DNA of 64,000 bases from positions 62,001 through 126,000 of the forward strand of contig NZ_JAAOHY010000003.1 of the NCBI RefSeq assembly GCF_011308835.1, given 5' to 3'. Under the pieces are notes generated by a model. The model made no database searches, was not told the DNA's origin, and saw only the letters and a list, made by a program, of their open reading frames with translations. The position numbers were made by a program, and so were the translations under genes. Shown one piece after another: positions 36,225 to 45,470 of the stretch (within the stretch, counting starts at the first letter, position 1; each line of letters begins with the position of its first letter). This DNA comes from Paracoccus xiamenensis (GTDB lineage Bacteria; Pseudomonadota; Alphaproteobacteria; Rhodobacterales; Rhodobacteraceae).

Positions 36225-37043
36225 TCAGCCGCCCAGAAAGGCCCGCATCAGCGGGTGGTCGGGGTCCTTCAGCCCGTCCAACACGTCAAAATGGTTTCGC
36301 CCGGCTTCCGCGATCAGCTGGATCTGCTGGCCCTTGCGGCCCCAGGCCTCGGCCAGCAGCGCCGACTGGCGCAGGAACTCCGGCCGCTCGGCAGCGCCGA
36401 CCCATGCGGTGACAGGGACGCCGGGCAGCGGGTCCAGCAGCGCCGGGCTTTCGGCGGCGGCTTCCTCGGCATCCAGCCGCAACCCTTTGTTCATGGAATG
36501 GAATTGCAACGGCCGCAGGTCGTGCAACCCGCTGAGCGTGACCACATGCGCGATCCGGCTGGCGACTTCGCCCGGCAAGGGTGTATCGCCACAGACCAGC
36601 CGCGTCGCCACCTGCCCACCTGCAGAGTGTCCACAAAGCCGGATCGGGCCAGCGACCAGTCCCGCCGCCGCCACGATGGCACGCCCGACCTGCCGCGCGA
36701 TGGCGCCGATCCGCGCTTCTGGTGCAAGGGTATAACCGGGGAATGCCACCGCCCAACCCTGCGCCAGCGCACCGGTCGCCAGATCGGACCAGACCGATTT
36801 GTCGAAGGCCAGCCAGAAACCGCCATGGATGATGACGGCCAGCCCTTTCGGGCGACCTTCGGGCATGAACAGATCGAATCGCTCCCGCTCATGGGGGCCA
36901 TAGGGGATATCCAACTGCGCCTTGGCGTTGGCGCGAAACTCTGCCGCGCGGGCCTGCCAGCGGCCCGGATAGCTGGCGCCATCGGGAATATAGACGGAGT
37001 TCAGGAACGCATCTTCCCAGTCAATTCCCGCCGCGTCTGCCAT
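36225..37043 (-). CDS. kynB: Alpha/beta hydrolase, probable N-formylkynurenine formamidase
   Basis: From the ATG at 37043, preceded by AGGGGGGA, the protein has 272 residues. It is an esterase-type alpha/beta hydrolase with the oxyanion motif HGGFW and nucleophile motif GHSAGG; a late GRNHFDVLDG fits the catalytic histidine. It is divergent from the 2-aminobenzoate ligase and near kynA and kynU, which fits hydrolysis of N-formylkynurenine to kynurenine. This lineage differs from the metal-dependent KynB family of pseudomonads, so the symbol reflects role, not family. Confidence 0.75.
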   Translation of the reverse strand: MADAAGIDWEDAFLNSVYIPDGASYPGRWQARAAEFRANAKAQLDIPYGPHERERFDLFMPEGRPKGLAVIIHGGFWLAFDKSVWSDLATGALAQGWAVAFPGYTLAPEARIGAIARQVGRAIVAAAGLVAGPIRLCGHSAGGQVATRLVCGDTPLPGEVASRIAHVVTLSGLHDLRPLQFHSMNKGLRLDAEEAAAESPALLDPLPGVPVTAWVGAAERPEFLRQSALLAEAWGRKGQQIQLIAEAGRNHFDVLDGLKDPDHPLMRAFLGG

Positions 37044-37098
37044 TTTTCCCCCTGTCACTACCGGCACATCCGGCTGCTGAAAATAAGCTTCAAGTATG

Positions 37099-37118
37099 AA
37101 ATTTCAAAATTGAAATTT
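37099..37118. promoter_or_regulatory. Perfect AT-rich palindrome in the kyn divergent promoter
   Basis: AAATTTCAA-AA-TTGAAATTT has perfect 9-base arms with a 2-base centre, flanked by ATG and TCAT that extend the symmetry. It lies 56 bases upstream of the formamidase start and 113 bases upstream of the ligase start. In a high-GC genome such a site strongly suggests an operator for a regulator of both transcripts. The regulator gene is not in the locus. Confidence 0.6.
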
Positions 37119-37230
37119 TCATGCGGTTGAGCAAATATGGTTCCTGACCAAAGATCGCCGGTCAGGGGCAAAAGGCAAGCCCGCGCGGGGGAGCGCGTGT
37201 GCCGGCGGTTCATTCCTGGGAGGGAACAAG

Positions 37231-42726: not shown

Positions 42727-43407
42727 ATGCTAGACGTCGCGAACCTGACCGCCTCCTACGGGGTCAGCCGGGCGCTGTTCGGTGTCGATCTGCGCATCGG
42801 CGAAGGCGAGGTGCTGGCGCTGATGGGCCGCAACGGCATGGGCAAGACCACCACCGTCAAGGCGATCTGCCGGATGATTGCCTCGGCCGGAGACTTGCGC
42901 TTTGACGGTCAGGACCTGCACCGGCTGACCAGCGACGCCGCCGCCAGGCTGGGGATCGGTCTGGTCCCCGAAGGCCGGCGCTGCTTCCGCGACCTCAGCG
43001 TGCGCGAAAACCTGATCGTCGCCGCCCGCCCCGGCCCCTGGGACATGGACCGTGTCACCGCGCTGTTCCCCCGGCTGGGCGAACGGCAGGGCCAGAACGC
43101 GGCCTCTTTGTCGGGGGGCGAACAGCAGATGCTGGCCATCGGCCGGGCGCTGATGACCAATCCGCGCCTGCTGATCCTGGACGAGGCGACCGAGGGGCTG
43201 GCCCCCATCATCCGGCAGGAAATCTGGGCCGCCATCGCCCGGCTGAAATCAGAAACCGGCATGGCGATCTTGCTGATCGACAAATCGCTGAAGGAGTTGT
43301 CCGGCATTTCCGACCGCGCCGTGATCCTGCAACGGGGCAGCACCGTCTGGTCGGGCCCGATGGCCGAGCTGACCCCTGATATTTCCGAGAAACTGATTGG
43401 TGTATGA
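42727..43407 (+). CDS. livF: LIV-type ABC ATPase LivF
   Basis: A 226-residue ATPase. Although the frame is open far upstream into livG, the true start is the ATG at 42727 (LDVANLTASYGVSRALFGVD). Walker A is GRNGMGKTT, the signature is LSGGEQQMLAIGRAL and Walker B is LLILDEATEGLAP. It completes the five-part importer that precedes kynA. Confidence 0.92.
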   Translation: MLDVANLTASYGVSRALFGVDLRIGEGEVLALMGRNGMGKTTTVKAICRMIASAGDLRFDGQDLHRLTSDAAARLGIGLVPEGRRCFRDLSVRENLIVAARPGPWDMDRVTALFPRLGERQGQNAASLSGGEQQMLAIGRALMTNPRLLILDEATEGLAPIIRQEIWAAIARLKSETGMAILLIDKSLKELSGISDRAVILQRGSTVWSGPMAELTPDISEKLIGV

Positions 43408-43449
43408 TGAGACTGCGCGCGACGCCCACCCATTCACAGGGTTCCTGCC

Positions 43450-44283
43450 ATGAGTGACGCCTACGATCCCGCCCGCGAGGGCGCGAAAATGTCCTTCGAA
43501 AAGGACATGAGCTATATCGACTATCTCGCGCTCGACCAGATCCTCGGCGCGCAGCACCGGCTGTCCTCGGCCCATGACGAGATGCTGTTCATCATCCAGC
43601 ACCAGACCTCGGAACTGTGGATGCGGCTGGCGTTGTTCGAACTATCCGCCGCCCGGCGCGAATTGCAGCAGGGCCATTTCCGCCCCGCTTTCAAGATGCT
43701 GACCCGCGTGGCCCGGATCTTCGAACAGCTGAATAACGCTTGGGACGTGCTGCGCACCATGACGCCCAGCGAATATACGGCGTTGCGCGACGATCTAGGT
43801 GCCTCGTCCGGGTTTCAGTCACATCAATATCGGCTGATCGAGTTCATTCTGGGCAATCGCAACCGGGCGATGATGAAGGTCCATGAACACCGGCCCGAAC
43901 TGCACCAGATGCTGGAAGCTGAGATCGCCGCGCCCTCGCTGTACCGGGTCGCACTGGATGCGCTTGCCGAACAGACCGGGCTTTCCTTCGATCTGTCGGA
44001 CCAACCGCTTGACCAGCCCCATACCGCCGACGCCGGGGTGCTGGCGGCATGGAAGCGCGTCTATCAGCACCCGCACGACTATTGGGAGCTTTACGAACTG
44101 GCCGAAAAGCTGGTGGATCTGGAAGATTACTTCCGCCGCTGGCGTTTTAACCATGTCACCACCGTGGAACGCATCATCGGCATGAAGCGTGGCACCGGCG
44201 GCACCAGCGGCGTCGCCTATCTGCGCCGCATGCTGGAGGTCGAGCTTTTCCCCGAACTCTGGCAAGTGCGAGGTCAGCTATGA
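43450..44283 (+). CDS. kynA: Tryptophan 2,3-dioxygenase
   Basis: A 277-residue heme enzyme that opens the indole ring of L-tryptophan to N-formylkynurenine. Family motifs include [12 protein letters not shown], the sequence [19 protein letters not shown], and [17 protein letters not shown] with a conserved substrate-contact arginine. The C-terminal [14 protein letters not shown] is conserved too. It follows livF by 42 bases and overlaps kynU by ATGA. Confidence 0.95.
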
Positions 44284-45470
44284 CGACCCTTCCCCGCAAG
44301 CATCTGTTCGATCTGCCCGAGGGCGTGATCTATCTTGACGGCAATTCACTGGGACCGCTGCCCCGCGCCGTCGCCCCGCATCTGGCGCAGGTGGTCGGCA
44401 CCCAATGGGGCCAGCACCTGATTACCGGCTGGAATGTGGACGGCTGGATGGAACAGCCCCTGCGTGTCGGCAACCTGATCGCGCCGCTGATCGGCGCGCC
44501 CGAAGGGTCCGTGATCATGGGCGATACCCTGTCGATCAAGGTCTATCAGGCGCTGTCGGCGGCGCTGGCGATGCGCCCCGACCGGCGGGTGATCCTGTCC
44601 GACAGCGGCAACTTCCCCACCGATCTTTACATGGCCGAAGGACTGATCCGTCAGTTGGATCACGGCCATGAATTGCGCGTCGTCGCCCCCGAGGCGGTCG
44701 AGGACGCCATCACCGAAGACATCGCCGCCGTGATGATCACTCAGGTCGATTACCGCAGCGGTCGCATGCACGACATGACCCGGATCACCGCCCGCGCCCA
44801 GGCAGCCGGCGCAGTGACGATCTGGGATCTGGCCCATAGCGCCGGCGCGGTGCCAGTGGATCTGGATGGATCGGGCTGCGAGTTTGCCGTCGGCTGCACC
44901 TATAAATACCTCAATGGCGGCCCCGGCGCGCCGGCTTTCATCTATATCCGCCCCGACCTGGCGGATCAGGCGCAGCCTGCCCTATCGGGCTGGATGGGCC
45001 ATGACGCGCCCTTTGCCTTCGAACTGGGCTATCGCCCCGCCACCGGGATCGAGAGGATGCGCGTCGGCACGCCGCCGGTCCTGCAAATGTCGGCGCTGGA
45101 GGTCGCACTGCGGGCTTGGGAAGGCGTCGACATGGCCGATCTGCGCGCCACCCAGATCGCGCTGTCGGAACTGTTCATCGCCGAGGTTGAGGCGAAATGC
45201 CCGGGCCTGACCCTCGCCAGCCCGCGCGATCCGCAGGCGCGCGGCAGTCAGGTTTCCTTCGCTTTCGAACATGGCTATGCAGCGATGCAGGCGCTGATCG
45301 CGCGCGGCGTCATCGGCGATTTCCGCGCCCCCGATATCATGCGCTTTGGCTTCACTCCGCTGTATCTGGACGAGCACGACATCCGCCGCGCCACTGCCAT
45401 CATGGCCGAGGTCATGGAGGGCAAGCTGTGGGATGACCCCGCCTATCAAAAGCGGGGCCGGGTGACCTGA
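44280..45470 (+). CDS. kynU: Kynureninase
   Basis: A 396-residue PLP enzyme that splits kynurenine to anthranilate and alanine. The motif [12 protein letters not shown] opens the protein, the PLP aspartate lies in [14 protein letters not shown], and K209 in [10 protein letters not shown] is the PLP lysine. Coupled to kynA by ATGA. Its product is the substrate of the ligase at the left end of the locus. Confidence 0.95.

Follow-up and report, generated by a model that had tools for sequence, protein, structure and literature searches.

A tryptophan-to-anthraniloyl-CoA locus with a LIV-type importer, probably for an anthranilate-like acid, in Paracoccus xiamenensis

Within a 64,000-nucleotide stretch of the Paracoccus xiamenensis genome (contig NZ_JAAOHY010000003.1, positions 62,001 to 126,000; referred to here as the window), the locus at 36225-45470 joins genes for the breakdown of tryptophan and an aryl-CoA ligase to a complete ATP-binding cassette (ABC) importer of the leucine/isoleucine/valine (LIV) type. 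The reading we favor, to which we assign a probability of roughly 0.6, is that a tryptophan/anthranilate regulon is divided into two halves and that this locus forms the upper one, with an importer that most likely carries anthranilate. The mechanism would begin with the conversion of tryptophan to anthranilate by KynA, a divergently encoded hydrolase acting as formamidase, and KynU, after which the ligase would turn anthranilate into 2-aminobenzoyl-CoA and a second operon, on contig C14, would dearomatise and beta-oxidise this product. The importer would take up an aromatic monocarboxylate, most likely anthranilate, and the imported and tryptophan-derived pools would converge at the ligase. 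Both operons would be controlled through one palindromic operator, with a MarR-family protein as its probable regulator. Earlier work had established the 2-aminobenzoyl-CoA pathway, the kynurenine route, and benzoate importers of the LIV type; new here are the separation into two parts, one of them with kynA and kynU, the palindrome connecting these parts, and the independence of the importer in many relatives.

Gene content of the locus

Nine open reading frames are present where a preliminary description made from the sequence had placed them, and its end points, 36225 and 45470, are exact; one frame is on the minus strand and eight are on the plus strand:

36225-37067, minus strand: alpha/beta hydrolase, probable kynurenine formamidase, divergent (NF058665, 368.8 bits; PDB 2pbl and 4e11; homologue in Ruegeria pomeroyi)
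37231-38853, plus strand: 2-aminobenzoate (anthranilate)-CoA ligase (TIGR02262, 4wv3; orthologue co-occurs with full-length monooxygenase)
38899-40029, plus strand: LIV-type (periplasmic binding protein type 1) substrate-binding protein, probably of the aromatic-acid kind (Pfam Peripla_BP_6; sequence and fold relatives)
40083-41003, plus strand: LivH-like permease (BPD_transp_2)
41000-41983, plus strand: LivM-like permease (BPD_transp_2)
41970-42725, plus strand: LivG-like ATPase (ABC ATPase, BCA_ABC_TP_C present)
42727-43407, plus strand: LivF-like ATPase (ABC ATPase; predicted start, frame open from 42589, scanned from 42718)
43450-44283, plus strand: tryptophan 2,3-dioxygenase, kynA (TIGR03036)
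44280-45470, plus strand: kynureninase, kynU (TIGR01814)

Family matches bear out the ligase, the complete importer, kynA, and kynU that the preliminary description had named. KynA scores 390.7 bits against TIGR03036 in one search, equal to the cut-off, and 390.5 bits, slightly under it, in a six-frame search; its closest solved structure is the tryptophan 2,3-dioxygenase 2nox (1.3e-102). KynU exceeds the TIGR01814 cut-off (264.4 against 246.4 bits) and is closest to the kynureninase 1qz9 (1.3e-123), placing both the dioxygenase and the kynureninase of the kynurenine pathway to anthranilate in the locus. The aryl-CoA ligase expected of the aerobic 2-aminobenzoyl-CoA pathway is also here; with TIGR02262, the benzoate-CoA ligase family, it scores 369.3 bits, slightly under the cut-off of 375.25, and its top structural relative is 4wv3, named 'Anthranilate-CoA ligase'. 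The LIV/HAAT-type importer is complete, consisting of a type 1 binding protein, two BPD_transp_2 permeases, and two ATPases, one of which has the branched-chain C-terminal domain.

The weakest assignment of the locus is the divergent hydrolase. It exceeds the cut-off of the NCBIfam 'hormone-sensitive lipase' model NF058665, matches the solved kynurenine formamidase 4e11 modestly (2.9e-11), and is 50% identical to an R. pomeroyi hydrolase that adjoins a tryptophan dioxygenase gene. It is this dioxygenase-paired homologue that makes the hydrolase a probable kynurenine formamidase. The sole cyclase-family protein found in the genome matched no NCBIfam model at 1e-15.

Along the plus strand, gaps of 45 and 53 bases are followed by overlaps or a single base, and finally by 42 bases and an overlap, a short spacing that is compatible with a single eight-gene transcript. 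No RNA family rose above Rfam thresholds at 36100-45800, and Sigma-70-like and terminator-like matches are scarce and close to chance.

The onward pathway on a second contig

The genome is assembled in 21 contigs; the window lies on contig C15, and the onward enzymes are encoded on C14. There, a fused FAD monooxygenase/old yellow enzyme-type reductase of 764 residues (1298 bits, cut-off 1078) is followed on the same strand by a short-chain dehydrogenase/reductase (SDR), an enoyl-CoA hydratase, an acyl-CoA dehydrogenase, a thioesterase, and a RidA homologue. NCBI calls the monooxygenase model salicylyl-CoA 5-hydroxylase/oxidoreductase, and the model alone cannot tell which acid is used; the enzyme set seen in the C14 operon is that reported for the aerobic 2-aminobenzoyl-CoA pathway (PMC4539516). 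The C14 operon backs the CoA branch of anthranilate breakdown. The preliminary description had proposed a self-contained uptake and degradation route for tryptophan or kynurenine through this branch; the conversion of tryptophan to anthraniloyl-CoA is well supported, but the term 'self-contained' is wrong, because the steps after anthraniloyl-CoA are encoded on another contig.

Across 295 genomes of the family, kynA is present in 95 of the 105 that encode the monooxygenase versus 40 of the 190 others (odds ratio 36, p 6e-33), a pairing that indicates the fate of tryptophan carbon in the family. A catechol route by way of anthranilate 1,2-dioxygenase was rejected, as none of the 295 genomes had a match above the cut-off; weaker matches at 1e-120 occur in ten. 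The P. xiamenensis genome itself encodes a ring-hydroxylating dioxygenase large subunit (G000:C2:23164-24417) that stays below the anthranilate dioxygenase cut-off (446 of 671.9 bits, with one internal TAG read through). A weak match to the indolepyruvate ferredoxin oxidoreductase alpha subunit (L006:1998-4145; 277 bits, cut-off 650.9) also lies near its 2-aminobenzoyl-CoA operon, roughly 1.6 kb off the end that carries RidA.

A palindrome shared by the two operons

The 163-base gap between the hydrolase and ligase genes contains the palindrome TTTCAAAATTGAAA, a perfect copy of the pattern TTTCAAnnTTGAAA, which is its own reverse complement and for which mismatches were scored over twelve positions. 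Two putative sites lie in this gap:

37102-37115, no strand assigned: predicted operator TTTCAAAATTGAAA (extended palindrome 37099-37118)
37088-37101, no strand assigned: weaker predicted operator copy with two mismatches

The perfect copy is the sole plus-strand site with at most one mismatch in the window, and one promoter-like match for the hydrolase gene overlaps the palindrome. The C14 monooxygenase promoter carries CTTCAAGCTTGAAA, with one mismatch, about 78 bases before the gene, and the occurrence of TTTCAAnnTTGAAA in both promoters suggests that the locus and the monooxygenase operon probably form one regulon.

With up to two mismatches, the palindrome is found no more than 300 bases before the monooxygenase gene at 15 of 21 loci (0.5% in shuffles). 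It also stands upstream of this gene in 17 of 20 further genomes (1.0% in shuffles), where the 59 alternative half-sites with these letters reached at most 6 of 20. These 20 comprise 19 family-sample genomes with the importer apart from the pathway, counted out of 22 (G000, G178, and G146 omitted), together with the sister genome G030. The importer is preceded by the palindrome in 3 of 14 genomes that carry the pathway at another place and in none of 36 pathway-less genomes; in a second sample, which has some species in common with the first, the counts are 5 of 18 and 1 of 40 (p 0.009). For the second sample, 20 importer promoters were taken from the 22 genomes with unlinked importer and monooxygenase (G000 and G178 omitted) and 18 were counted. 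In this second scan L138 was counted although it is only 75 bases long. The palindrome is therefore a mark of the pathway's regulon, and in P. xiamenensis it probably links the two operons despite their separation.

The regulator that reads the palindrome (candidate site TTTCAAGCTTGAAA) is probably of the MarR family, as judged from P. denitrificans. In our search for its homologue, which covered L006, L128, and the window, a candidate was found on C14 that is 65% identical to the MarR protein of the P. denitrificans pathway run.

The binding protein and its likely ligand

The solved sequences closest to the binding protein are those of RPA0668/HbaE (4evq and 4evr), followed by 4ey3/4eyg, 4zpj, 4f06, and 4evs; the identity to HbaE, the nearest solved binding protein, is 32%. 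A fold search with a predicted model (mean predicted local distance difference test score, pLDDT, of 85.3) likewise placed 4evq first (Z 45.5, 2.2 Å over 350 residues), with the other five top matches at Z 40.7 to 42.8 and LivK next at 38.1. The six best entries are five aromatic-acid complexes and 4zpj, which ranks second and has no named ligand.

We compared the ligand pocket with that of the LIV-binding protein (LIVBP), in which Ser79, Ala100, Thr102, Tyr202, and Glu226 are reported to hydrogen-bond the ligand (PMC13103812). Only Ser79 is kept in the window protein and four of the five are changed: Ala100 becomes Asn, Thr102 becomes Gly, and Tyr202 falls in a gap, both here and in 36 orthologues, while Glu226, which holds the ammonium group in LIVBP, is Gly in the window protein and Ala in the 36 orthologues (two alignment rows were dropped, L014 for a stop and L019, which is antisense, from the ligand-residue comparison). 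These changes argue against leucine, tryptophan, or kynurenine as the ligand and favor an acid that lacks an alpha-amino group. From the sequence and the predicted model, the ligand is most likely an aromatic monocarboxylate resembling anthranilate.

That the importer is an ordinary branched-chain amino acid importer, placed here by chance, is very improbable: it belongs to the same fold family, and the permeases of its relatives are so annotated in public records, but four of the five LIVBP ligand residues are changed and aromatic-acid binders rank first. A branched-chain substrate was rejected on these ligand residues and nearest relatives. The 'branched-chain amino acid permease' genes of many marine and soil Rhodobacterales probably serve aromatic acids.

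The preliminary description had tentatively assigned the importer to kynurenine or anthranilate, allowing for the uptake of tryptophan or kynurenine, and the two halves of this proposal fare differently. In favor of tryptophan or kynurenine, the importer shares a gene run with kynA and kynU in the window, 14 of the 65 family genomes with both kynA and the importer have them no more than 20 kb apart, and among named importer loci kyn genes stand beside the importer in 6 of 32 pathway genomes versus 0 of 36 others (p 0.008; 12 of the 80 loci were unassigned and omitted). Against this, the Glu that receives the amino group in LIVBP is Gly or Ala, the nearest relatives bind acids without an alpha-amino group, 6 of the 11 Paracoccus genomes with a close importer lack kynA, and kynurenine uptake in Escherichia coli is attributed to Mtr, AroP, and TnaB, with no ABC system (PMC12164975). 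We consider such a substrate improbable, while the proposal of an anthranilate-like acid agrees with the nearest relatives and the LIVBP positions. Anthranilate itself is our best guess, preferred since it fits the adjoining ligase, with tryptophan or kynurenine less likely.

A further alternative is that the importer carries another or a broader range of aromatic acids, such as benzoate, salicylate, 4-hydroxybenzoate, or 4-aminobenzoate, and has come under the anthranilate operator only in some genomes. Its nearest solved relative, HbaE, is reported to bind benzoate, 4-hydroxybenzoate, and salicylate, and the main text of that paper makes no mention of anthranilate (PMC3223731).

The importer and the pathway across genomes

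Among 80 named importer loci, some of which end at contig ends, the monooxygenase and ligase lie within 10 kb in 15 and the ligase alone in 3; kynA or kynU lies within the same distance in 6, 4 of them among the 18 ligase-bearing loci. At 60 of the 80, none of the monooxygenase, ligase, or kyn genes is that near, as would be expected of an importer for a broader set of acids, and ten such stand-alone loci that were scanned have differing neighbours that give no clue to a substrate (MbnP twice, both in Ruegeria, TctA, AnmK, a peroxidase, MarR, TauE, TetR, a glycosyltransferase, and one unmatched protein). In the 295-genome sample, the importer is present in 114 genomes, the monooxygenase in 105, and kynA in 135; 50 have both importer and monooxygenase, 64 the importer only, 55 the monooxygenase only, and 126 neither, so that 64 of the 114 importer genomes lack the monooxygenase, which also favors a broader substrate range. 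Speaking against it, the importer and monooxygenase lie within 20 kb of each other in 28 of the 50 genomes with both, and the palindrome is almost confined, among importer promoters, to pathway genomes. On balance, we regard an importer of other or broader range as a possible but doubtful explanation.

Of the 62 named loci without a nearby monooxygenase or ligase, 50 genomes were searched, with importers 78-86% identical, and the full-length monooxygenase was found elsewhere in 14 (13 above the cut-off); a ligase orthologue (E 1e-150) is present in exactly these 14 and in none of the other 36. Within 20 kb, kynA accompanies the monooxygenase in 32 of the 95 genomes with both. Among 61 Paracoccus genomes, counting both importer clades, the full-length monooxygenase is present in 22 of 29 importer genomes versus 2 of 32 others, where two of these 24 monooxygenases score below the cut-off and the 40% identity line was set after inspection of the data. 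The second of these clades, a sister to the first with 40-47% identity in Paracoccus, was left out of the 295-genome count. Two Paracoccus genomes, G003 and G022, encode two copies each of its binding protein, and one of the G003 copies has kynA and the monooxygenase close by on its contig.

Several results weigh against a two-part regulon with an anthranilate importer. At the thresholds used, 36 of the 50 searched importer genomes have neither monooxygenase nor ligase anywhere, in a set chosen for having neither near the importer. The link between importer and monooxygenase in the 295 genomes is weak (50 of 114 versus 55 of 181, p 0.024) and is not significant within kynA-positive or kynA-negative genomes (p 0.45 and 0.72), and in the same sample nearness of kynA to the importer is not significantly tied to the monooxygenase (12 of 48 versus 2 of 17, p 0.32); in all of these association tests the kinship of the genomes is uncorrected. 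No column of the binding-protein alignment splits pathway from non-pathway genomes (largest difference 0.42 on a scale to 1), suggesting that both groups probably share one ligand. In two genomes, L144 and L145, kynA adjoins the importer and the monooxygenase is on a different contig, and scans of larger stretches around the importer, 12 and 10 kb respectively, revealed no palindrome. Finally, the MarR candidate on C14 (L128:843-1259) is some 14 kb away from the second operon.

These results leave the importer partly tied to the pathway and, in many relatives, existing independently of it. A binding-protein orthologue occurs, for example, in Ruegeria arenilitoris (L050), whose genome lacks the pathway. 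Pathway-linked importers as a single clade were rejected, since 13 changes of the label are required for 21 rows, although 500 shuffles averaged 19.3 changes, with none as low, so that the label is clustered to some degree. The binding proteins of the window and of one sister genome (L027), which are 94% identical, fall inside the named roseobacter-type clade and stand apart from other Paracoccus orthologues, a grouping that suggests horizontal transfer. We tentatively hypothesize that this widespread Rhodobacterales importer could be a high-affinity anthranilate importer, repeatedly recruited to a tryptophan/anthranilate regulon by gaining TTTCAAnnTTGAAA, with the acid put to other use in pathway-less genomes.

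Neighbouring genes

Directly beside the hydrolase, at 31994-36097 of the window, are molybdenum hydroxylase genes (a MoCoBD subunit, a [2Fe-2S] subunit, and an XdhC-family protein) together with a CxxCH-bearing protein that has no family match. Genes of the xanthine dehydrogenase family are also found shortly past the tryptophan dioxygenase gene of R. pomeroyi DSS-3. Further out, at 28686-31841, an ABC ATPase with a TOBE domain and an extracellular binding protein adjoin an arginase-family gene.

Comparison with known systems

The aerobic 2-aminobenzoyl-CoA pathway of Azoarcus evansii resembles the system described here in its ligase, fused monooxygenase/reductase, and beta-oxidation genes, but in P. 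xiamenensis the pathway is divided between two contigs, and the ligase and a complete importer are joined to kynA and kynU. The A. evansii cluster, described by Schuehle in 2001, reportedly also includes an ABC binding protein, a MarR regulator, and a YjgF/RidA-type protein.

Among importers, the HbaEFGHI/RPA0668 benzoate system of Rhodopseudomonas palustris shares the LIV-type parts and a CoA-ligase context; as reported, it is clustered with an anaerobic aromatic-acid pathway and its ligands were measured, whereas the window importer is known from its sequence (PMC3223731). Such published LIV-type benzoate importers call for caution over the suggestion in the preliminary description that this importer may be the first of its type. 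The assignment to anthranilate, if proved, could nevertheless be a first: a 2020 paper describing an expression system induced by anthranilate states that its authors knew of no specific anthranilate transporter (PMC7778614), and no bacterial ABC importer assigned to anthranilate or kynurenine is among the matches listed in the open-licence literature. The importer is a concrete candidate for a specific anthranilate transporter.

The megaplasmid of R. pomeroyi DSS-3 (NC_006569) carries a monooxygenase operon with the ligase, and a divergent hydrolase and tryptophan dioxygenase, but unlike the window has no importer in the 22 kb of the cluster that was viewed. Closer to the window is plasmid 1 of P. 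denitrificans PD1222 (NC_008688), whose ligase and binding protein (WP_011751313.1) share 75% and 72% identity with those of the window; for the monooxygenases of the two genomes the figure is 78%. On this plasmid, the monooxygenase, SDR, MarR regulator (WP_011751307.1), hydratase, dehydrogenase, thioesterase, RidA, ligase, whole importer, and hydrolase form a single run, which, unlike the window, is uninterrupted and contains no kynA or kynU; plasmid pSG53 of Sulfitobacter guttiformis has a similar arrangement. The common palindrome makes both the proposed substrate and the candidate regulator directly testable in P. denitrificans.

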